34,768 nucleotides of DNA. Source: an uncultured Saprospiraceae bacterium (GTDB lineage Bacteria > Bacteroidota > Bacteroidia > Chitinophagales > Saprospiraceae). The notes under the pieces were generated by a model. That model saw nothing but the letters and a program-made list of their open reading frames with translations, did no database searches and was not told where the DNA came from. A program made the translations under genes and the position numbers. The first letter of the stretch is position 1. Each line of letters opens with the position of its first letter. Location of the stretch: positions 1-34,768 of the forward strand of contig CALDTJ010000425.1 in assembly GCA_937924145.1 (NCBI GenBank), read 5' to 3'. Shown here in pieces: positions 6,289-19,421 of the stretch.

Positions 6289-7743
6289 TTAAGCCATCAC
6301 GTTCGAAGCTGCATCAATGACTTCTTGCGAAATAGTAGTTGGACATTGGTAATCGCTCAAAGTAATTGCTCCACTTTGTTCGATTCCTTTAAATCCATTT
6401 TGAACATCCACTAAATCATGAAAACCTCTAGCCTTTAAAATGGAAGCTGCAATGACTGAACGGAAGCCACTTCCACAATAGAGGTAGTAAGTCGTAGCTC
6501 TATTTAACAGTCCCATATTATTATTCAAATAACCTAAAGGTAGGCTCGTTGAATTTTGAACGTGGTGCGCTAAGAATTCTGTAGGCTTTCTAACGTCTAA
6601 GATTACCCCATTGTCATCACTAGAAATTTGCTGAGCGAATGTTGTTGGGGAAATCGACTTGACCGAATCAGTTTCTTTACCTGCTTTTTCCCATGCAGTT
6701 ATACCTCCTTCTAAATATCCCAAGGTGTTGTCGTACCCTACTCTAGCTAAACGAGTTACTGCTTCTTCTTCTCTTCCTTCTGGTGCTACCAACAAAATAT
6801 TTTGTGAAATATCTAAAATTAATGCACCTACCCAAGGAGCAAAAGTACCATCTAAGCCAATGAAGATAGATCCAGGAATATGTTTTTTTACAAACTCACT
6901 TTTGTGCCTAACATCTAATACTAAAGCATCTTCAGTATTAGCAATAGCCTCAAAATTGGCTGCATCTAATGCTACGACTCCTCGCTTTAAAACTGTATCA
7001 ATACTTGCATACCCTTCCTTATTCATCCGAACATTTTGACCGAAGTATTGAGGAGGTGGAGTTAGGCCTGAAGTGACTTCTTTAATAAATTCTGCTTTGG
7101 TCATATCGGCTCGTAAAGCGTAATTGACTTTCTTCTGATTCCCTAAGGTATCGACCGTTTCTTTCATCATATTTTTACCACAGGCAGAACCTGCACCATG
7201 TGCTGGATAGACAATTACTTCATCGGCTAGTGGCATGATTTTATTTCGTAAACTGTCAAATAAATGACCTGCTAAATCTTCGACGGTTATTTTGCCATTT
7301 TTTTGGGCTAAATCAGGTCGTCCTACATCCCCTAAAAATAAGGTGTCACCAGAAAAAATTGCATGGTCTTTGCCGTTTTCATCCTTCAGTAGAAAAGTTG
7401 TGCTTTCCATCGTGTGCCCTGGCGTATGTAGTACCTTTATCGTTACATCACCAATTTTAAATGTTTGATTGTCGGTAGCTACAATCGTCTCAAATTTAGG
7501 ATTGGCATTAGGCCCATAGATGATTGGAGCACCTGTTTTTTCCGATAAGGTAACATGACCACTTACAAAATCTGCATGGAAGTGCGTCTCAAAAATATAT
7601 TTCAATGTTACCCCGTCTTTTGCCATTTGATTTAAATATGGTTGCACTTCTCTTAATGGATCAATAATGGCAGCTTCTCCATTGGAAGTAATATAATAAG
7701 CACCTTGTGCTAAACAACCTGTATAAATTTGTTCTATTTTCAT
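6289..7743 (-). CDS. MBL-fold persulfide dioxygenase fused to two rhodanese domains (CstB-like)
   Basis: HFHADFVSGH, PGHT, SGDTLFLGDVGRPD, PAHGAGSACG metal motifs; first rhodanese without active-site Cys (LLVAPEGREEE); second with Cys (YLYCGSGFRS). Confidence 0.9.
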   Translation of the reverse strand: MKIEQIYTGCLAQGAYYITSNGEAAIIDPLREVQPYLNQMAKDGVTLKYIFETHFHADFVSGHVTLSEKTGAPIIYGPNANPKFETIVATDNQTFKIGDVTIKVLHTPGHTMESTTFLLKDENGKDHAIFSGDTLFLGDVGRPDLAQKNGKITVEDLAGHLFDSLRNKIMPLADEVIVYPAHGAGSACGKNMMKETVDTLGNQKKVNYALRADMTKAEFIKEVTSGLTPPPQYFGQNVRMNKEGYASIDTVLKRGVVALDAANFEAIANTEDALVLDVRHKSEFVKKHIPGSIFIGLDGTFAPWVGALILDISQNILLVAPEGREEEAVTRLARVGYDNTLGYLEGGITAWEKAGKETDSVKSISPTTFAQQISSDDNGVILDVRKPTEFLAHHVQNSTSLPLGYLNNNMGLLNRATTYYLYCGSGFRSVIAASILKARGFHDLVDVQNGFKGIEQSGAITLSDYQCPTTISQEVIDAASNVMA

Positions 7744-7799: not shown

Positions 7800-7844
7800 C
7801 AAAGTTACTGTTGCTATTAGCTAAAGTTTGTGATGCAAATCACG
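7800..7844 (-). promoter_or_regulatory. Crp/Fnr-like site (7829-7844, TGTGATGCAAATCACG on +) plus -7 box TAACTTTG (7800-7807 on -) upstream of the CstB-like gene
   Basis: Palindrome lies 21 nt upstream of a perfect TAnnTTTG. Confidence 0.7.
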
Positions 7845-7860
7845 CTTGACAATTTATTTC

Positions 7861-8142
7861 TTACGCCCTTAATATAGCTTTTACTTCTTTTAAGCTACCA
7901 CCATTGTAAATATCAGTTATTCCCTGAGTTTTTAGGTAGTTCATCGCTTGTCCACTGCGGTTTCCACTTCGACAATACACTACTATGGGCTTACTCATTT
8001 TTTGAAACTCTGATAGTCTATCCTCGATTTTACCAAGCGGAATATTTACTGCCCCTTTTGCTTTGCCAAAAAAGGTTTCAAAAGGTTCTCTTACATCTAC
8101 AATTGTGGTTGATTCTTGTTGGATTATTTTTTGTAGGTTCAT
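7861..8142 (-). CDS. Single-domain rhodanese-like protein
   Basis: DVREPFE..., active-site VYCRSGNRS; 93 aa. Confidence 0.92.
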   Translation of the reverse strand: MNLQKIIQQESTTIVDVREPFETFFGKAKGAVNIPLGKIEDRLSEFQKMSKPIVVYCRSGNRSGQAMNYLKTQGITDIYNGGSLKEVKAILRA

Positions 8143-8182
8143 TATTTTTGATTTATTAATTGAATAATTACTTACTTCATTA

Positions 8183-8227
8183 CAAAGTTATGGACATTAT
8201 TTGCCTATGTCTGTGATTTACTTCACA
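8183..8227 (-). promoter_or_regulatory. Crp/Fnr-like site (8212-8227, TGTGATTTACTTCACA) plus -7 box TAACTTTG (8183-8190 on -) upstream of the rhodanese gene
   Basis: Perfect TGTGA-N6-TCACA 21 nt upstream of a perfect TAnnTTTG. Confidence 0.75.
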
Positions 8228-8316
8228 GTCAAGAAATATATTGATATTTCTGTACAATTGAATTGATTATTTTAAATATCAACTGTAGAGACTTACACCT
8301 TCGTGAAAACCTAAAA

Positions 8317-10047
8317 TCAACTATTCGTTTGCAAAATGTACGATGCTGCATCAAGAGAAGGCATAGTAGCTGGCATTTTATCAATAAAATTAACCGCTTG
8401 TTGAATTCCCATAAAACAGTTATGGCGACCTATCTTTTCTAAAAAATGAGCTCTCTCCATCGCATCTCTAACTGGCCCCTTTACTCCCGTAAATAAAACA
8501 GTAACCTGATTGTTACGATAGTCTGCAACCACTTCTTCTAGCATGTGAATCGCACTACTATCTAAATTATTGATACTATTAAAACAAAGAATAACTGTTT
8601 TCAAGGCCTCGCCTTTTTGTGTGACCAAAGTATTCAGACTGTCTCTGAAATAATTGGTGTTCGCAAAATACAATTGAGCATCAAATCTAAAAATTAAAAG
8701 GTCTTTTCTTTCTTCTACTTGGTTAAAGCGATCAACATTTCTATAAAAGTGAGTACCTGGGACTTTGCCCAATTCTGCATAATGAGGTCGAGTGGTTCGG
8801 AAAATAATCATAGCGAGAGATAGGATAACTCCGATGCCAATCCCCTGTTCAATCCCTAAACCTAAAGTTGCTACAAAAGTTGCTACCAACATCCAAAAAT
8901 CGGATCGATTGGTAGCCCATAAGTGACGAGCTTCTTTTGCATCAATCAATCCAAAAACGGCTACCATAATAATAGAAGCTAAAATAGCATTGGGCAAATA
9001 GTAAAACAAAGGAGTCAAAAACAATAAGGTCAATACGATTAATGCTGCGCTAATGATGGAGGCCATGCCTGTCTTCGCACCTGCATCGTCATTTACCGCA
9101 GTACGTGAAAAACCACCTGTAACGGGATAGGATTGTAGAAATGAGCCACCGATATTGGCCAGACCAAGTGCAATTAATTCTTGATTAGGAACAACTTCGT
9201 AATCTTTATGTTTGGTTTGAATTGCTTTTGCAACTGCAATGCTTTCCATGAAACTAACTAAGGAAATCGCTAAAGCGACAGGTAGTAAGGTTTGGATCGT
9301 CGTCCAATCAAAATTTGGTACAGCAAAAGTAGGTAAGCCACTTGGCACCTCTCCAACTATTTTAACGCCATTATCTGTTAGTCCTAGTGTAATTACCACT
9401 AAAATTCCAAATACAACTGCCAATAAAGAACCTGGAATTGCCTTATTGATTTTTTTAACGGTGATAATCAATGCAATTCCTATTGTGCCAAGCAAAAAGG
9501 TACTTAAATTAACAGCTTCTATTTTGTCGAATGCTTCTAATAGTATTTCATGTACATGATGACTTCGAGCTAAGTCAATACCTAATAAATGCTTTAATTG
9601 GCTTAAACCGATGATTAAGGCTGCTGCCGAGGTAAAACCACTAATGACAGGATGAGATAGGAAATTGACTAAAAAACCTAAGTGAAATACGCCGAGCAAA
9701 AATTGTATTAAGCCTACCATCAAAGCTAGAGTAATCGCTAAGGCAATATAAGTTTCTGTACCACCTGCGGCCAATGCCCCAATTCCAGTAGCTGTAAGCA
9801 GTGAAATCATAGCTACGGGTCCTACTGCTAGTTGCCTAGAAGTACCTAATAAAGCATAAATAATTAAGGGTAAAGTAGACGCATATAGGCCATAGATCGG
9901 TGGTAGTCCTGCAATCATTGCATACGCCATTCCCTGTGGAATGAGCATTACTCCTACGGTCAGCCCTGCCGCTAAATCTCCTTTGAATTGTACTTTTTTA
10001 TAGTTGGAAAGCCAGTCAAAAGCTGGTATATATGATTTGATATTCAT
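8317..10047 (-). CDS. SulP-family anion transporter with C-terminal STAS domain
   Basis: GLTVGVMLIPQGMAYA, GLPPIYGLYAS, PVTGGFSRTAVN; STAS motif NNLDSSAIHMLEE. Confidence 0.95.
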   Translation of the reverse strand: MNIKSYIPAFDWLSNYKKVQFKGDLAAGLTVGVMLIPQGMAYAMIAGLPPIYGLYASTLPLIIYALLGTSRQLAVGPVAMISLLTATGIGALAAGGTETYIALAITLALMVGLIQFLLGVFHLGFLVNFLSHPVISGFTSAAALIIGLSQLKHLLGIDLARSHHVHEILLEAFDKIEAVNLSTFLLGTIGIALIITVKKINKAIPGSLLAVVFGILVVITLGLTDNGVKIVGEVPSGLPTFAVPNFDWTTIQTLLPVALAISLVSFMESIAVAKAIQTKHKDYEVVPNQELIALGLANIGGSFLQSYPVTGGFSRTAVNDDAGAKTGMASIISAALIVLTLLFLTPLFYYLPNAILASIIMVAVFGLIDAKEARHLWATNRSDFWMLVATFVATLGLGIEQGIGIGVILSLAMIIFRTTRPHYAELGKVPGTHFYRNVDRFNQVEERKDLLIFRFDAQLYFANTNYFRDSLNTLVTQKGEALKTVILCFNSINNLDSSAIHMLEEVVADYRNNQVTVLFTGVKGPVRDAMERAHFLEKIGRHNCFMGIQQAVNFIDKMPATMPSLDAASYILQTNS

Positions 10048-10066
10048 GATTGATGTATGGGGTGTT

Positions 10067-10717
10067 TTATCCTAAAAAAGTAATTTGATTTCTACTCAAT
10101 TTTACTAAGCCTAAATTTTCCATTTTTTTCAATAATCGAGAGACTGCCTCTCGGGATACATTTAGATCATCAGCAATTTGTTGGTGGGTATAACTAAGAA
10201 TATTGCTTCCTGTTGATTCACTAAGAGATTGTAAGAAATTCTTCATCCTAGTATCTAACCCTCGAAAGGCAATATTGTCAATCACTTTCACCAATTCTAA
10301 CATTTTGTTATCATAGGAACGCATGACAAAATTTTTCCAAACGGTATATTTAGTCATCCATAAATCGACATATTTGATAGGGATGCCAATTATCGTAGTT
10401 GGCTCAATGGCCTCTGTCCGAATCGCACTTTTTTTGTCCATCATACAGCAAGTAAAAGACATGGAACAGGTTTCTCCTGCATTTAAAAAATAGAGCAATA
10501 ATTCTTTACTCTCTATTTCGTCCTCTCTGCTGACTTTTATACTTCCTTTGACAATTAAGGGGACCATTTTCACATAGTTACCATAATCTAATAGTGTCTC
10601 GCCTGCTCCAAAGTGCAATAATTGCCCTACTTCCGATATTTCTTCTCTTAATTGCCTATCGGAAATTTGTGGAAATTGCGTTTGTAAAATCTGCGCTATA
10701 TTATTTATTGTACCCAT
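10067..10717 (-). CDS. Crp/Fnr-family transcriptional regulator
   Basis: cNMP-binding-like N-terminal region and HTH QQIADDLNVSREAVSRLLKKME; 19 nt upstream of the SulP gene on the same strand. Confidence 0.93.
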   Translation of the reverse strand: MGTINNIAQILQTQFPQISDRQLREEISEVGQLLHFGAGETLLDYGNYVKMVPLIVKGSIKVSREDEIESKELLLYFLNAGETCSMSFTCCMMDKKSAIRTEAIEPTTIIGIPIKYVDLWMTKYTVWKNFVMRSYDNKMLELVKVIDNIAFRGLDTRMKNFLQSLSESTGSNILSYTHQQIADDLNVSREAVSRLLKKMENLGLVKLSRNQITFLG

Positions 10718-10745
10718 ATTTGATCTTGTCTAATTTCTAATGTCA

Positions 10746-10791
10746 CAAAGATAAACTAGAAGTAGCGCTCAGGTCTGTGACGGATATCACA
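10746..10791 (-). promoter_or_regulatory. Crp/Fnr-like site (10776-10791, TGTGACGGATATCACA) plus -7 box TATCTTTG (10746-10753 on -) upstream of the Crp/Fnr gene
   Basis: Perfect TGTGA-N6-TCACA 22 nt upstream of a perfect TAnnTTTG; suggests autoregulation. Confidence 0.75.
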
Positions 10792-10993: not shown

Positions 10994-12853
10994 ATGAAAA
11001 TAAATATATCTAAGGCAATCAAACAGTTCTTTCCAAATCCATCTTTGGACATGGTGTACTTTGAAGCTATAGCCAATTGCCTAGATGCTGGAGCCACGAA
11101 AATTCAACTAAAAATCAATATCCACTCTTATGATGACCCTAAATCGTTTAGAATCTCGGTGGAGGATAATGGATCGGGCTTTTCGGATAGAGGGTTTCAA
11201 AGGTTTTGTGAACTTTTGGAAACAGATAGTGCGGACAATAAAGGATTAGGACGTTTGGTTTTTCTGAACTACTTTGGGCAAGCGATTTATGATACGCTAT
11301 CAGAAGATCGCCCTCGTTCTTTCATTCTCAATAAAGAATTTGATAAGGAATGTAGTAAAACGTCTTCTCTTTCAACAAATGGGACAAAATTAGTGCTCAA
11401 CAATTATAAATTGATGAGTATTAAAACCTACGATTACCTGAGGGCTGAAACACTTGCAAAGTCCATACAATTACACTTTTTACCTAGACTTTTTTTATTA
11501 AATCAACAAAATATAAAGGTGGATATCTCCATCGAAGTGAACACTGAAGTAGAGAATTCCTCAAAACTATTCACTTCGGATAAGCAATTGGTTTCGTCTA
11601 GTAAGTTGCCGAAATTAATTTTAAAGAAATTTAAGGTTGATCACATTAACTTGTTCGACCAATTTGAGATACTTTACAAAATTGAAGAGGACTATGAGGA
11701 CACGAACTTAATTGTGGCTTTGAATGCTGATAATCGTACGATCCCAATATCTGATATTATTTCTAAGGACAATATACCTCAAGGCTACAATTGTATTTTT
11801 CTAATTCAGTCTGATTTTTTCAAAGGCAAAGTGGGAAATTCAAGACAAAAATTAGAAATAGATAAGCAAGAATTTTCTGCTTTAAAATATGCGATTATCA
11901 GAGAAATCAAACTGATATTAGATAAGGAAATCCCTAATATTATTGAACGGAATGATGCCGAACGGAAAATCTTGGATAAAAAATTCCCTCACCTGATAGG
12001 TTATTTTGATGATAATATTGCAGGACTAATTGATCGATCTAAAATTTTGGATAGAGCGCAAGTACGATTTTTTAGAGATCAAAAGAAAATTTTAGAAACT
12101 ACTGATTTATCCAATGGGCTCTTCAAAAAATCTTTGGAAGTTTCTTCTAGAGTACTGACTGCCTATATTTTGCATCGAAATCTAGTCATCAAGAAACTTC
12201 AAGAAACCAATTCGTTGGATAGTGAGGTGGAGATTCAACAGATGATTGTTCCATTGAGGGACTCTTCTAAAAGTAAGAATAAGTATGCTGAAATCTATCG
12301 CAATAATGCATGGTTGTTGGATGACAAATTCATGTCCTATAATACTACGCTTAGTGACTCGGCCTTTAATAAATTGATAAAAGGACTGGCAATCGAAGAA
12401 GAACTAGCCTTGGGTGCTACCTCAAAGCCTGATTTATCCATTGTATTTAATCGAAATCCTGCTGAATATTCCGCCGAAGTTGTAATCATCGAACAGAAAA
12501 ATAAGATAGTAGGACCAAACGCAAAAGAGAAAGTTGTAGACCAGATACAACGAAGGGCACAAAAGTTACTTGCCTATTATCCAAATAACATTCAACGAAT
12601 GTGGTTTTATGGATTGGTAGATATGGATAACGAATTTGAATTAGCGCTGCAAGCTGATGGATATACTCTAATTGATGGTGGTGAGCACACTTTTTATAAA
12701 AACGTAGATATTCAGCATGATAATAATGGTGTTACCCATCGTTGTCCTATTGGTATCTCGATTTTGTCAGCTAGTACATTCTTAGAGGTCGCAGAAAATC
12801 GGAATCAGCGGCTTTTAAATTTATTGAAAAAATCTTTTAAGGAAACTTCCTAA
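10994..12853 (+). CDS. GHKL (HATPase_c_3-like) ATP-binding protein with C-terminal PD-(D/E)xK nuclease-like motif
   Basis: N box EAIANCLDAGA, G1 VEDNGSGF, G2 NKGLGRL; C-terminal KPDLSIVF...AEVVIIEQKNK...QIQRR. Confidence 0.8.
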   Translation: MKINISKAIKQFFPNPSLDMVYFEAIANCLDAGATKIQLKINIHSYDDPKSFRISVEDNGSGFSDRGFQRFCELLETDSADNKGLGRLVFLNYFGQAIYDTLSEDRPRSFILNKEFDKECSKTSSLSTNGTKLVLNNYKLMSIKTYDYLRAETLAKSIQLHFLPRLFLLNQQNIKVDISIEVNTEVENSSKLFTSDKQLVSSSKLPKLILKKFKVDHINLFDQFEILYKIEEDYEDTNLIVALNADNRTIPISDIISKDNIPQGYNCIFLIQSDFFKGKVGNSRQKLEIDKQEFSALKYAIIREIKLILDKEIPNIIERNDAERKILDKKFPHLIGYFDDNIAGLIDRSKILDRAQVRFFRDQKKILETTDLSNGLFKKSLEVSSRVLTAYILHRNLVIKKLQETNSLDSEVEIQQMIVPLRDSSKSKNKYAEIYRNNAWLLDDKFMSYNTTLSDSAFNKLIKGLAIEEELALGATSKPDLSIVFNRNPAEYSAEVVIIEQKNKIVGPNAKEKVVDQIQRRAQKLLAYYPNNIQRMWFYGLVDMDNEFELALQADGYTLIDGGEHTFYKNVDIQHDNNGVTHRCPIGISILSASTFLEVAENRNQRLLNLLKKSFKETS

Positions 12854-13415: not shown

Positions 13416-15371
13416 TTAAATTGTTAATTTTAAAAAATAATCCATCGCTGCTGGATTTCGGATAGCATCTCGATTTATCCCTTCTTTTGTAGTCATTTTC
13501 ATTAATATTCGCTTAACTGGGACTTCCATTTTTTTCCCACTTAGCGTGTAAGGAATATCGGGAACAACTATAATCCGATTAGGCACATGACGGGGCGAAC
13601 ATTGAGTTCTTAAATTCTTTTTAATCAATTGTTGAAGTTCATCGCTAAGTAACTGATTTTCCTCCAAAACCACAAATAACGGCATTATATCTTCTCCATT
13701 TGGCTGTTCTAGATTGATAATTAGGCTATCCTTAATCGCTGTGATTTCATCTAGGACACTATAAATTTCTGCAGTCCCAATCCTAATTCCATTCCGATTA
13801 AGCGTAGCATCCGACCGCCCTTGAATGATTAAAGAGCCATTTTTTTCAATTTTTATCCAATCGCCATGTCGCCATTTATTGGGAAAAGTATCGAAATAGG
13901 CCGCTTCATATCGCTCGTTATCCTTATCGTTCCAAAAATAGATTGGCATGGAAGGCATTGGTTGTTCGATGACCATTTCCCCTAGTGTTTCAGCTATTCT
14001 CTTGCCATCGGCTGTATAGGCGTACAAAGCACAACCTAAAGACCGACTTTGAATATATCCTTTGTAGACTGGTTGGGTAGGATTCCCCCCAACAAAAGCA
14101 GTGCAAACATCTGTCCCACCACTCATAGAACACAGCCAAATATCTTTGGAAATATGCTGATATATCCATTCAAAAACATCTGGTGGTAATGGCGCACCCG
14201 TTGAACCTAGTGACCGTAAATTACTAAAGTCAAATTGCTCGTTTAGTTTCAAATTAGCCTTCATACAAGCAGTCAAAAATGGAGCACTTGTGCCAAAATG
14301 ATGTATGGGTAAGGTGGAGGAAAATTCCCAAAGACTGTTTATTGATGGATGTGCTGGACTACCATCAAATAATACGGGAACTGCACCAACCAACATACTG
14401 GCTTGCAGAAAATTCCACATCATCCAACCAGTAGTAGTAAACCAGAAAAAGTTTTCTCCCTCTTTTACATCATTATGAAAGGACATATATTTCAAATGCT
14501 CTAAAAGTACGCCTCCATGAGCATGAGTAATGGCTTTTGGCTTACCTGTAGTTCCCGAAGAATACAATACCCAGATAGGATGATTAAAAGGAACAGGCGT
14601 AAATGTTAACCTTTTTTTGCTTTCAAAATCTTGTAGTATATTTTGCCAAAGGCTTGCCTTTTCAAGTTTAGCAGTTGGATCTAAGTAAGGAACAAAAACG
14701 GTATGCTGAATACTTTGAATGTCTTGCTGTATGTTTTTTACGGATTCAATTCTACTAAATTCTTTTCCACCATAGGAATAACCATCTACGGCAATCAGTA
14801 ACTTAGGATTTATTTGAGAAAATCGTTCAATAACTGTTTTTTCTCCAAAATCTGGTGAACAGCAAGTCCATACTGCACCAATAGAATTCACAGCTAAAAA
14901 ACAACTAATTGCAGTTGGAATATTAGGTAAATAAGCCGCTACACAATCCCCTTTCTGTATGCCTTGATGGATTAAAAATTGTTGGAATGCCTTAACCTCT
15001 TTTTCTAAAGTTGCCCACGAAATTGATACTTCAGTATGTTCATTTTTGAAAATTAAGGCGGGTCTTGAATTAGATTTTTGTCTAAAAATATGTTCTGCAT
15101 AATTTACTTCCGCACCTTCAAACCAACGCACTTTCGGCATTCCTTCATCTACTAAAACGGTATCGTATGGTTGATGGCTGATCACATTAAAATATTCCCA
15201 AATAGATTCCCAAAAGTCGCCTATTTCATTCGTTGACCAAGTCCATAATTCATCATAATCCTTAAAGGAAAGCTGTTTGTTTTTGCCCAACCATTTTTCA
15301 TAATCCTTTAGATTGGATTGCTCTATGAATTTGGAAGATGGCTGCCATAATATTTTTTGTGCTTCTTTCAT
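13416..15371 (-). CDS. Acetoacetate-CoA ligase (acetoacetyl-CoA synthetase)
   Basis: 651 aa AMP-forming ligase; YSSGTTGKPKAITHAHGG, TTTGWMMWN, HGDWIKIEKNGSLIIQGRSDATLNRNGIRIGTAEIY, C-terminal SGKKMEVPVK. Confidence 0.92.
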   Translation of the reverse strand: MKEAQKILWQPSSKFIEQSNLKDYEKWLGKNKQLSFKDYDELWTWSTNEIGDFWESIWEYFNVISHQPYDTVLVDEGMPKVRWFEGAEVNYAEHIFRQKSNSRPALIFKNEHTEVSISWATLEKEVKAFQQFLIHQGIQKGDCVAAYLPNIPTAISCFLAVNSIGAVWTCCSPDFGEKTVIERFSQINPKLLIAVDGYSYGGKEFSRIESVKNIQQDIQSIQHTVFVPYLDPTAKLEKASLWQNILQDFESKKRLTFTPVPFNHPIWVLYSSGTTGKPKAITHAHGGVLLEHLKYMSFHNDVKEGENFFWFTTTGWMMWNFLQASMLVGAVPVLFDGSPAHPSINSLWEFSSTLPIHHFGTSAPFLTACMKANLKLNEQFDFSNLRSLGSTGAPLPPDVFEWIYQHISKDIWLCSMSGGTDVCTAFVGGNPTQPVYKGYIQSRSLGCALYAYTADGKRIAETLGEMVIEQPMPSMPIYFWNDKDNERYEAAYFDTFPNKWRHGDWIKIEKNGSLIIQGRSDATLNRNGIRIGTAEIYSVLDEITAIKDSLIINLEQPNGEDIMPLFVVLEENQLLSDELQQLIKKNLRTQCSPRHVPNRIIVVPDIPYTLSGKKMEVPVKRILMKMTTKEGINRDAIRNPAAMDYFLKLTI

Positions 15372-15482
15372 AATTGGTAAATGTAGTTAGTCGCACTCTG
15401 TACGCTCGGCATTCGTAATTGTCGTTAGGAGACGACTTTGATATGGATTCCTAGTCAGGAGGAATATCAAGGTCTATTGTTA

Positions 15483-17084
15483 CTACATCCTAAATACCCC
15501 ATAGGTTTGTGTACCATTAATCGACTGATTATTAAAAATATTTAAACAAAAACCTAGGTAATTTCTAGTATCTCTTGGGTCAATAATACCGTCATCCCAT
15601 AGATGTCCACTTGCATACCAAGAAGAAGAAACTGCTTCATTATTTCTAATAATTTCCTCTTTAGTCGGAGCAAATTTTTCTTCATCAAACGGAACGCCTG
15701 CTCTTTTTGCCTTCCCTCGTTGGATGATTTCCATGACTCCTGCAATTTGCTCTGAACCCATCACCGATACTTTTGAATTAGGGTAAGCAAACATGAAATT
15801 TGGTTGGTAAGAACGACCATTCATCGCATAGTTACCTGCTCCATAGGAAGAGGCTAAATTGATGGTAATAGTCGGTACTTTACTATTGGCTACCGCATTA
15901 ATCATTTTTGCACCTTGCTTAATAATTCCGCCTTGTTCATACTCTTTTCCGACCATGAATCCTGTAATGTTTTGTAAGTAAATTAGTGGGCGATTATTTC
16001 GATTACAAAGCTGAATAAAATGGGTTGCCTTATTCGCAGATTCTGAAAATAAAACCCCGTTGTTTCCTATAATCCCAACAGTATATCCATGTATTTCTGC
16101 CCAACCAGTGATTAATGTCGTCCCATAATCTGGTTTGAATTCTAGAAACTTTGACCCATCTGTTATTCTAGCAATCACGTCTCTAACATCAAATGGAATT
16201 CTAACATTGGGAGAAATGATTCCTAATAATTCATCTGCATCATATTTAGGTGGTTCAATGTTTTTATTTGGCACAAAATGAGGTTTTGGGTCTTCTATTG
16301 AAACCATTAATTGTCTCGCTAATTTAATGCCTTCCAACTCGTCTGCTGCAAGGAAATCAGAAACACCCGATTTACTAGAGTGCATCTCTGCCCCACCTAA
16401 TTCCTCGGCATTGGCAATTTCATTCGTTGCCATTTTTAACAAGGGGGGGCCTGCTAAAAATACTTGCGCTTTATTTTTAATGAAAACAGAAATATCTGAC
16501 ATTCCAGGTACGTAAGCCCCGCCTGCGGTAGCATTGCCAAAAACTACAGAAATGGTCGTCAAACCTGCCTCAGAACGTCTAGTAATCTCTCTAAAATTTT
16601 CACCAGCCAGCCCAAAAGTTCGTACTTGATCTGGAAGATTTGCGCCGCCACTTTCTACTAATTGAATACAAGGCAATCTATTTTCAAGGATGATTTCGTT
16701 CATCCGAATGTACTTCTTAGTGGTGGAATAATCCATCGTTCCCCCCTTCTTCGTCCCTATATTCGAGTTAATCATGCACAATTTGCCCGAAACTAAGCCA
16801 ATGCCCATGATGGTCGTTCCATTGGCACCAAAACCATTGTCTACCCCCAAACCAGCCAAAGGCATCAATTCCAAAAAAGGACTATCTTTATCTAATACTA
16901 ATTGGATTCGTTCACTTGCCAACAATTGATTGTCATTTCTTGCTCGTTTGATCCGTGCCGCAGATCCTTGAAAACGGCTTTCTTCTTTGTAAGCTTCCAA
17001 CTGCTTTAATAAGGTGTTCATGCCCTCATAATTGGCTTGAAAGACCTTGGAGTTTTTATTGATGGTTGAATGTAGTACGTCCAT
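15483..17084 (-). CDS. Acyl-CoA carboxylase carboxyltransferase (beta) subunit, methylcrotonyl-CoA carboxylase-like
   Basis: LVESGGANLPDQ, GNATAGGAYVPGMSD, FLAGPPLLKMAT, SSYGAGNYAMNGR motifs of MCC beta. Confidence 0.9.
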   Translation of the reverse strand: MDVLHSTINKNSKVFQANYEGMNTLLKQLEAYKEESRFQGSAARIKRARNDNQLLASERIQLVLDKDSPFLELMPLAGLGVDNGFGANGTTIMGIGLVSGKLCMINSNIGTKKGGTMDYSTTKKYIRMNEIILENRLPCIQLVESGGANLPDQVRTFGLAGENFREITRRSEAGLTTISVVFGNATAGGAYVPGMSDISVFIKNKAQVFLAGPPLLKMATNEIANAEELGGAEMHSSKSGVSDFLAADELEGIKLARQLMVSIEDPKPHFVPNKNIEPPKYDADELLGIISPNVRIPFDVRDVIARITDGSKFLEFKPDYGTTLITGWAEIHGYTVGIIGNNGVLFSESANKATHFIQLCNRNNRPLIYLQNITGFMVGKEYEQGGIIKQGAKMINAVANSKVPTITINLASSYGAGNYAMNGRSYQPNFMFAYPNSKVSVMGSEQIAGVMEIIQRGKAKRAGVPFDEEKFAPTKEEIIRNNEAVSSSWYASGHLWDDGIIDPRDTRNYLGFCLNIFNNQSINGTQTYGVFRM

Positions 17085-17107
17085 TTAATTTTTGATTTTA
17101 TTCAGTT

Positions 17108-17268
17108 AGTAACGACGAAATAATAAATCCGTCAAGTTGGGCGAGGTTATTTTGTTCTCAGTTTTTGCCAAAAATTCTTTTCATAGCAGGGTTACGGAAA
17201 TAATTTTTGGTAGAAAATGAGGGCAAAAGAAACCGTCCAAATGGCGGAGTTATTGTTTTACCGTTACT
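17108..17268. repeat. 161-nt imperfect palindromic element bounded by AGTAACG / CGTTACT
   Basis: Left arm AGTAACGACGAAATAATAAATCCG...TTTTTGCCAAAAATTC aligns to the reverse complement of the right arm AGTAACGGTAAAACAATAACTCCG...TTTCTACCAAAAATTA, roughly 70-75% by eye over ~75 nt. Confidence 0.75.
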
Positions 17269-17303
17269 TATCTTAGAACAGGATAACAGCTCAATATCTA
17301 TTT

Positions 17304-18155
17304 TTAGAGACCCGGCAATACTTGACCAGCAATTTTCATAGCATCAAAATAACTATCCAAATTAAGTCCAATCTCAATATTTCGATCTCTAGCAAAACTA
17401 ACTAAATTTTCGGAAGGCATATTCCCAACTAATTTATTTTGTGCCATCGGACATCCTCCAAATCCTCTAATTGTTCCATCAAAACGGCGACAACCGCTTT
17501 CATAAGCGGATAGGACCTTTTCTTTCCAAGTATCGGGAGTCGTATGAAAATGTGCACCAATTTCTATATTGGGATTAGCAGGAATTAAGTTGCCAAATAA
17601 ATACTGAATATTTGCAGGTTCTGCTACGCCGATGGTATCTGATAGTTGGAAGATAGTAATATCTAATTTTGCTAATTGTTCTACCCATTCTTGCACTATT
17701 TCCACGTTCCAAATATCTCCATACGGATTTCCAAAACCCATAGAAATATAGATGAGTAAGGTTTTATTATTGGCTAAACATATTTCTTGGATGACTTTTA
17801 CTCTTTCCAAAGAATCGGCTATGGTCGCATTCGTATTTCTTAGCTGAAAGGTTTCTGAGATAGAAAAAGGATAACCTAAGACGTCCACTTCTGCAAAACT
17901 AGCAGCGCTGACCGCCCCTCTCCTATTGGCTACAATAGCTAGTAACTTAGTGGTCGTATCATCCAGTTCTAATTGCCCTAATACTTCCGCAGTATCTCTC
18001 ATTTGCGGAATGGCTTTTGGGGAAACAAAACTTCCAAAATCCAAGGTATCAAATCCCACTTTCAAGAGCGAATTTAAATATCGGACTTTTTCGGCTGTTG
18101 GGATAAAATCATGCAATCCTTGCATGGCATCCCTTGGACATTCGATTATCTTCAT
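17304..18155 (-). CDS. Hydroxymethylglutaryl-CoA lyase-like protein
   Basis: ECPRDAMQG (PRDGLQ-like), FGSFVSPKAIPQM, SDTIGVAEP, GAHFHTTP, GCRRFDGTIRGFGGCPMA. Confidence 0.9.
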   Translation of the reverse strand: MKIIECPRDAMQGLHDFIPTAEKVRYLNSLLKVGFDTLDFGSFVSPKAIPQMRDTAEVLGQLELDDTTTKLLAIVANRRGAVSAASFAEVDVLGYPFSISETFQLRNTNATIADSLERVKVIQEICLANNKTLLIYISMGFGNPYGDIWNVEIVQEWVEQLAKLDITIFQLSDTIGVAEPANIQYLFGNLIPANPNIEIGAHFHTTPDTWKEKVLSAYESGCRRFDGTIRGFGGCPMAQNKLVGNMPSENLVSFARDRNIEIGLNLDSYFDAMKIAGQVLPGL

Positions 18156-18260
18156 TAATAATAGACTTAATTCTGAAACGGTTTAGTCTTTCTAGCACTC
18201 CAGTGCTGGAATGACTTGGCGTACAAAAAAAATTAGAATAAACACGTTCAATAACAGTTA

Positions 18261-19421
18261 TTACTTTGTAGCCTCTTGATAAACTTTTTTGTCTAAAATC
18301 ATTTTCGCAATAATCTCACATAATATCTGAGAAGTACCACCACCAATCGGTCCTAATCGACTATCTCTAAACATTCTAGCCATAGGGTACTCTTCCATAT
18401 AACCATATCCGCCGAGTAGTTGTAGACAGTCATAAATTACCTCATCCGCTATTCTGGTAGATTCGAGTTTGGACATACTTGCCTCTTTTACCACATATTC
18501 TCCATCATTCAATCTTTTAGCAGTGACATAGTTGAAAGTTTTAATAATTTCTACCCTACTACTCAGTTCTGCTATTTTATGTCGGAGTACTTGAAACTTA
18601 TCCAGTTGCTTGCCAAAAGCAGTTCGTTCTGACATATATTGAATCGCGTATTCTAAGGCAAATTCTGCTCTAGCATGTGCATTGATGCCCATGATTAAGC
18701 GTTCTAAGGCAAAATGCTGCATGACATAAGGAAAACCTCGCCCCTCTTCTCCCATCAGATGGCTTGCTGGAATTTCTACGTCATTAAAGGCAATTTCGCC
18801 TGTATCCGATGCTCGCCAACCCAACTTATCCAACTTACTAGCACTTACACCTGGTGTATCTCGATCTACCAAAAAGACAGACATCCCTTTGTGCTTTGAT
18901 TCTAGATCTGTTTTAGCAATAACCACTAAATAGTCGCTATAAACGCCATTGGTAATAAATGTTTTGGAACCATTTAGAATGTATTTATCCCCCTTTTTGA
19001 CAGCGGTTGTCCTCATTCCTGCAACGTCTGAACCTGCAAAAGGCTCACTTATACAAAGACAGCCAATCATTTTACCTTCGATACTTTGGGCTAAATATTT
19101 CTCTTTAATTGCTGAGCTACCTTCCGCTTTTAGATGAGTCATAGCCAAATAAGCATGTGCCCACATGGCTGCTGCAAATCCTCCAGAATTGATTCGTTGC
19201 AGTTCTTCTAAGAAAATAACGGTATAAAACAGGTCTAAATCTAAGCCTCCGTATGCTTCTGGTTGGTTAATGCCAAAATAGCCCATTTCGCCAAATTTCT
19301 CCCAGATAAAACGGTCTATTTTTCCCGTTTTTTCCCACTTTTCGATATGAGGTACTACTTCTTGCTGAAGAAAACTTCTAAAGCCTTCTCTGAATAGGTG
19401 ATGTTCTTCCGTAAAATACAT
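18261..19421 (-). CDS. Acyl-CoA dehydrogenase
   Basis: CISEPFAGSDVAGMRTTA, GSKTFITNG, AFGKQLDKFQVLRHKIAE, LQLLGGYGYMEEYPMARMFRDSRL. Confidence 0.95.
   Translation of the reverse strand: MYFTEEHHLFREGFRSFLQQEVVPHIEKWEKTGKIDRFIWEKFGEMGYFGINQPEAYGGLDLDLFYTVIFLEELQRINSGGFAAAMWAHAYLAMTHLKAEGSSAIKEKYLAQSIEGKMIGCLCISEPFAGSDVAGMRTTAVKKGDKYILNGSKTFITNGVYSDYLVVIAKTDLESKHKGMSVFLVDRDTPGVSASKLDKLGWRASDTGEIAFNDVEIPASHLMGEEGRGFPYVMQHFALERLIMGINAHARAEFALEYAIQYMSERTAFGKQLDKFQVLRHKIAELSSRVEIIKTFNYVTAKRLNDGEYVVKEASMSKLESTRIADEVIYDCLQLLGGYGYMEEYPMARMFRDSRLGPIGGGTSQILCEIIAKMILDKKVYQEATK

Follow-up and report, generated by a model that had tools for sequence, protein, structure and literature searches.

The window analysed here, a stretch of 34,768 nucleotides from the genome of an uncultured Saprospiraceae bacterium, carries a gene for a Crp/Fnr-family regulator among genes for predicted sulfur-handling proteins. 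The question raised by this locus is whether the regulator controls those genes, and its own, through the three similar operator–promoter modules at this locus.

The sulfur locus and its operator–promoter modules

The regulator is a 216-residue protein encoded on the minus strand (10067..10717), assigned from its HTH_Crp_2 match (4.5e-11) and from alignments, and its recognition helix, SREAVSR, spans residues 188-194. The next gene, for a SulP-family anion transporter with a STAS domain (8317..10047, minus strand; TIGR00815, 540 bits against a cut-off of 380), starts 19 nt past the regulator stop codon. The earlier note had given this distance correctly and had placed both genes on one transcript; the adjacency is kept in the relatives L061, L062, L065, L067 and L070 and in others, and the two genes are probably cotranscribed. 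Further along the same strand are a small single-domain rhodanese (7861..8142; 93 aa, PF00581 6.7e-13) with a YCRSGNRS loop, and a CstB-like enzyme (6289..7743) in which an MBL persulfide-dioxygenase-like domain (PF00753) precedes two rhodanese domains (two PF00581 stretches). The middle rhodanese domain has no catalytic Cys and the last one carries YCGSGFRS, which is the domain order of the CstB-type persulfide dioxygenase-sulfurtransferases (MBL, Cys-less rhodanese, Cys-bearing rhodanese), and the protein aligns over its whole length to PDB entries 3r2u and 3tp9. Elsewhere in the window, a 619-aa GHKL-type ATPase protein (10994-12853; HATPase_c_3, weak MutL similarity) is encoded divergently to the regulator, and a likely leucine/acetoacetate degradation cluster (13416-19421) comprises genes for acetoacetate-CoA ligase, a carboxyltransferase, an HMG-CoA lyase-like protein and an acyl-CoA dehydrogenase.

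Each of the three modules consists of a TGTGA-N6-TCAC palindrome and, downstream on the minus strand, a perfect TAnnTTTG -7 box. Operator 1 (10776..10791; TGTGATATCCGTCACA on the minus strand) lies 5' of the regulator–SulP pair and is separated by 22 nt from its box (10746..10753; TATCTTTG), which is invariant in the promoter alignment. Operator 2 (8212..8227; TGTGAAGTAAATCACA on the minus strand) precedes the small rhodanese gene, with a gap of 21 nt to its box (8183..8190; TAACTTTG). Operator 3 (7829..7844; CGTGATTTGCATCACA on the minus strand), imperfect in one end base, precedes the CstB-like gene, again with a 21-nt gap to the box (7800..7807; TAACTTTG). The distance from box to start codon is 28 nt for the regulator, 40 nt for the small rhodanese and 56 nt for the CstB-like gene. 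The positions of the palindromes and the gaps of 21, 21 and 22 nt are those given in the earlier note, and a motif scan found the same gaps and boxes again.

All three operators are kept in promoter alignments. In same-genus relatives the same genes are preceded by the same modules, and the main islands of identity in the three promoters are the palindrome half-sites and the -7 boxes, while the spacers drift; this is the result of the phylogenetic footprinting that the earlier note had suggested. The CstB-like promoter of one same-genus relative (L063:4691-4917) retains palindrome and box at a gap of 44 nt instead of 21, which is about two helical turns longer.

In the 7.0-Mb source genome neither motif is informative by itself: TGTGAN6TCAC gives 36 directional matches genome-wide against 32 for a reversed control, and TAnnTTTG is common. 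The exact palindrome and box together, with the gap left free between 14 and 34 nt, occur three times, two of them here, and the reversed control gives none; about 0.06 exact modules with a gap of 21/22 nt would be expected in this genome. Because the composite is rare and its control empty, it is the combination that is significant. Two exact modules and one with a single mismatch stand within 3 kb of one another, and in a genome scan allowing two mismatches the window modules score 0, 0 and 1 mismatch, with at most one mismatch found elsewhere only on contigs C481, C320 and C630.

The C481 module, TGTAACCAAAATCAC(A) followed after 21 nt by TACCTTTG, was recovered in that scan directly 5' of a gene for a 196-aa Sulf_transp protein (YeeE-type, PF04143) and then a 137-aa DUF6691 gene. 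In the relatives L064 and L074 these two genes adjoin the regulator and have a module. The operator–promoter layout as such recurs ahead of the same genes in dozens of related genera, throughout the family and, with an altered half-site, in the class. Since the unlinked YeeE/DUF6691 operon has a near-perfect module of its own, the regulon is wider than one locus, and the description of the circuit as local, made in the earlier note, does not hold.

A gene-blind view of the regulon across the family

The composite was also scanned for, blind to gene content, in 99 genomes of the same family, nearly all from different genera. This returned 138 palindrome–box pairs, 106 of them with a gap of 21/22 nt, where about 13 would be expected if gaps were uniform (binomial p ~5e-79). 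A control pattern with C at the fourth half-site position (TGTCA/TGAC) gave 34 matches in the same genomes, of which four had this gap. The palindromes by themselves are at background level genome-wide, as modules arising by chance or from base composition would require; the composite counts, the TGTCA control, the kept spacing and the kept target genes are all against such an origin, whose likelihood is negligible, and the fixed spacing together with the control led to its rejection. The three modules of the window are thus real, as judged from conserved footprints and from a regulon recovered without reference to genes.

Core sulfur-gene operons are headed by 54 of the 103 canonical modules whose surroundings were retrieved, and in 44 cases a core gene comes first. 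These 54 operons contain MBL-rhodanese (24), rhodanese (16), SulP (11), YeeE (9), DUF6691 (9) and regulator (8) genes. By comparison, one of 12 modules with a non-canonical gap heads a core sulfur operon, and most of the others lie inside genes. About half of the family's canonical modules have other genes, or no called gene, downstream; further targets include thioredoxin, methionine sulfoxide reductases (MsrA/B), 1-Cys peroxiredoxin, carbonic anhydrases, and Tll0287-like and cytochrome-type proteins. The regulator neighbourhood is likewise dominated by MBL-rhodanese, rhodanese, SulP and YeeE genes. The idea of a sulfur regulon under a Crp/Fnr protein, proposed in the earlier note, is supported, apart from the word local.

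Two further observations concern gene content near the regulator and its targets. In four relatives (L067:5980-6435, with homologues in L068, L069 and L072) a 151-aa ArsR-type HTH protein is encoded near the Crp/Fnr regulator and is possibly a BigR/SqrR-like co-regulator. In some relatives an Fe-S/NrfD fusion and a molybdopterin oxidoreductase, a set that resembles a sulfite-oxidising complex, lie beside SulP and the CstB-like gene (L067:11474-13099, L093:7089-9956); for the source genome, a SoeA-like sulfite oxidoreductase (955-aa subunit) was rejected, the best match showing only 25% identity.

Module presence follows the regulator. Of the 45 genomes whose best regulator match scores 180 bits or more, 36 have modules, compared with 6 of the 54 others (Fisher p 1.6e-12, a value that overstates the evidence because the threshold was set after the data had been seen and the genomes share ancestry, the latter effect being limited by sampling one genome per genus). 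Pairs with non-canonical gaps show no difference between genomes with and without a close regulator. This correlation bears on the idea that a different Crp/Fnr paralogue is the main protein at these sites, which would leave no local autoregulation. A candidate is encoded on C320 of the source genome (L080:8233-11820): a paralogue with 41% identity to the window regulator, a SREAISR helix and a CCC triad, beside a one-mismatch module of its own, in which 21 nt separate TGTGATCTATGTCACA from TATATTTA. This module precedes a gene for a molybdopterin oxidoreductase of 765 aa, an arrangement found again in L084. Against this, module presence across genera tracks close relatives of the window regulator, several module-rich genomes contain a single close homologue, and the window regulator's own promoter bears a module, likewise in relatives, as the autoregulation proposed earlier would have it. 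Binding mainly by a paralogue is accordingly quite improbable.

The recognition helix and its operator

In E. coli CRP, with the half-site numbered T1G2T3G4A5, Arg180 contacts G2, and Arg185 and Glu181 read the G4:C4 pair (PMC11253593). The window regulator keeps all three residues, as R189, E190 and R194 in the alignment. Some related regulators have Val in place of this Glu (SRVVISR), and in these relatives the -42 position of the sulfur-gene promoters is occupied by TGTAAC-N4-GTTACA. Loss of the Glu together with a change of G4 to A fits the CRP precedent, since it is Glu181 that takes part in reading this base pair.

A loose TGTAA-N6-TTAC pattern was not clearly above its control, and TGTAAC-N4-GTTAC was used instead. 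In the same 99 genomes this has 13 matches, every one at a gap of 21/22 nt, ahead of MBL-rhodanese and rhodanese genes and of TauE/SafE-like and cytochrome bd-like genes recognised by eye. Across 245 genomes of the same class, 47 of 54 matches are at this gap; the targets are MBL-rhodanese, rhodanese and SulP genes by BLAST and, by eye, several TauE/SafE-like, one SQR-like and one Hcp-like gene. TGTGA modules occur in 38 of 53 Glu-type but 2 of 23 Val-type genomes (p 5e-7), and TGTAAC modules in 7 of 23 Val-type but 3 of 53 Glu-type genomes (p 0.007). The proposed pairing of SREAVSR with TGTGA half-sites is thus seen across genomes as a co-occurrence of the Glu-type helix with TGTGA modules. 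The exceptions are G118, which keeps the Glu (SREVISR) and has two TGTAAC modules, and the Glu-type genomes G086 and G081 with one each; the G118 regulator (loci L284, L263 and L268) is a possible intermediate of a specificity change. The regulator tree contains at least six Glu/Val changes and three supported independent pairs, a number at which independent-pair tests have no power, and a single main swap, or a few, may underlie the covariation.

Because helix residue and half-site change together, while operator position and gene types stay the same, it is very likely, on the strength of these sequence comparisons, that the window regulator itself reads the palindrome. Its DNA target appears to change with a change of one residue.

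Mode of action, signal and relation to known systems

The flavobacterial TAnnTTTG box spans -12 to -5 (PMC9723704). With the box so placed, gaps of 21/22 nt put the palindrome centre at -41.5/-42.5, in agreement with the class II position near -42 named in the earlier note; for these predicted start sites, the geometry of the window modules would be that of a class II Crp-type activator. No conserved -33 element was seen in 111 aligned modules. Activation is favoured because the fixed gap centres the site at about -41.5 and a conserved -33 element is absent.

The regulator might alternatively act as a repressor over the -35 region that is freed by persulfide. An operator adjacent to a promoter can repress, and two reports describe CstR and SqrR/BigR as repressors, with FisR as an activator (PMC9774590; PMC5823870). 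Repression would, however, tolerate varied operator placement. A constant 21/22-nt gap, which centres the palindrome at -41.5, and promoters without a conserved -33 element agree with class II activation, and the repressor model is rather improbable.

As to the family of the regulator, HTH_Crp_2 is the best Pfam match and is above its cut-off, and profile matches to CRP, NtcA, FNR and 3dv8 extend over both domains (winged HTH and cyclic-nucleotide fold). A CsoR- or ArsR-family (CstR/BigR) assignment was rejected on these grounds: the match to ArsR HTH_5 is weak (4.4e-05, 23.7 bits) and confined to the HTH stretch, and the two-domain Crp profile opposes it. The earlier note's choice of a Crp/Fnr protein over CstR/BigR-type control is in line with this result. 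The protein does not fall in the cAMP-activated CRP class (equivalog score 37.5 against a cut-off of 266), and in an alignment with CRP the residues at the cAMP-binding positions Glu72, Arg82, Thr127 and Ser128 differ. The Fe-S oxygen sensor FNR has four cluster cysteines, three of them near the N-terminus. No such set is present in the regulator, which scores 22.7 bits as FNR (cut-off 228) and has Cys only at positions 84, 90 and 91. This triad, C84-x5-C90-C91, lies in the region aligned to the phosphate-binding cassette of CRP and is invariant in close homologues; it is also found in paralogues with other, non-sulfur neighbours. Since the effector pocket contains this invariant triad and the cAMP residues are absent, a persulfide or similar thiol-reactive signal read by the triad is plausible.

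If the protein responded to general redox state, NO or oxygen and had sulfur genes as incidental targets, this would account for the thioredoxin, MsrA/B, 1-Cys peroxiredoxin, carbonic anhydrase and cytochrome-type targets, for the cytochrome bd-like and Hcp-like genes recognised by eye, and for the triad in the non-sulfur paralogues. MBL-rhodanese, rhodanese, SulP and YeeE genes nevertheless dominate both the blind regulon and the regulator neighbourhood, and this alternative, though serious, is unlikely. With good confidence, the best explanation is an autoregulated Crp/Fnr class II activator of a sulfane sulfur/thiosulfate regulon. A regulator dimer would bind the three TGTGA-N6-TCACA operators, whose centres lie at about -41.5/-42.5, and work in class II fashion to activate sigma-A promoters that have a TAnnTTTG box and lack a conserved -33 element. 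This would switch on the regulator and SulP, the rhodanese, the CstB-like persulfide dioxygenase-sulfurtransferase and the unlinked YeeE/DUF6691 sulfur transporter for the handling of sulfane sulfur/thiosulfate. The presumed signal is persulfide or another thiol-reactive species, which the Cys triad would sense in what was once the cAMP pocket.

Such a system shares with E. coli CRP, where the latter acts on class II promoters, the fold, the R-E-x-x-x-R helix contacts, the TGTGA-N6-TCACA operator and a centre near -41.5, and differs in the loss of the cAMP residues, in having sulfur rather than carbon targets and in its Bacteroidota-type -7 box. FNR, DNR and HcpR belong to the same Crp/Fnr superfamily, and HcpR reads a TGTGA-like palindrome; unlike them, the regulator has its three Cys in the effector domain without an FNR-type Fe-S set, and its targets concern persulfide/thiosulfate. 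Similar targets (CstB, Blh, rhodaneses, transporters) are described (PMC9774590; PMC5823870) for CstR of S. aureus, BigR/SqrR and FisR, which unlike the window regulator belong to the CsoR, ArsR and Fis families, respectively; CstR, BigR and SqrR are repressors and FisR is a sigma-54 activator. The window enzyme has the MBL–rhodanese architecture of CstB/Blh persulfide dioxygenase-sulfurtransferases but is under predicted Crp/Fnr-type control. The unlinked target resembles YeeE/YedE-SoxT transporters (PF04143 Sulf_transp plus DUF6691 half-proteins) but is split into two small proteins, with sulfur as putative substrate. No paper describing a Crp/Fnr sulfur regulon was found in the open-licence literature, which is not proof of novelty, and such a regulon is apparently undescribed so far.

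Overall, persulfide/thiosulfate control has so far been described via CsoR-, ArsR- and Fis-type regulators. For a Crp/Fnr-type route across many genera, the present results offer an operator, a promoter geometry and a set of targets that are open to testing, and its regulons would be predictable from sequence alone. More tentatively, and with somewhat more doubt than conviction, a class-wide, Cys-based Crp/Fnr family may be the main persulfide/thiosulfate activator of Bacteroidota, in which a Glu-to-Val swap at the equivalent of CRP Glu181 moved specificity between TGTGA and TGTAAC and left position, promoter type and target genes unchanged. This would be a possible natural case in which a transcription factor changed in step with its operators, by one residue and one base.
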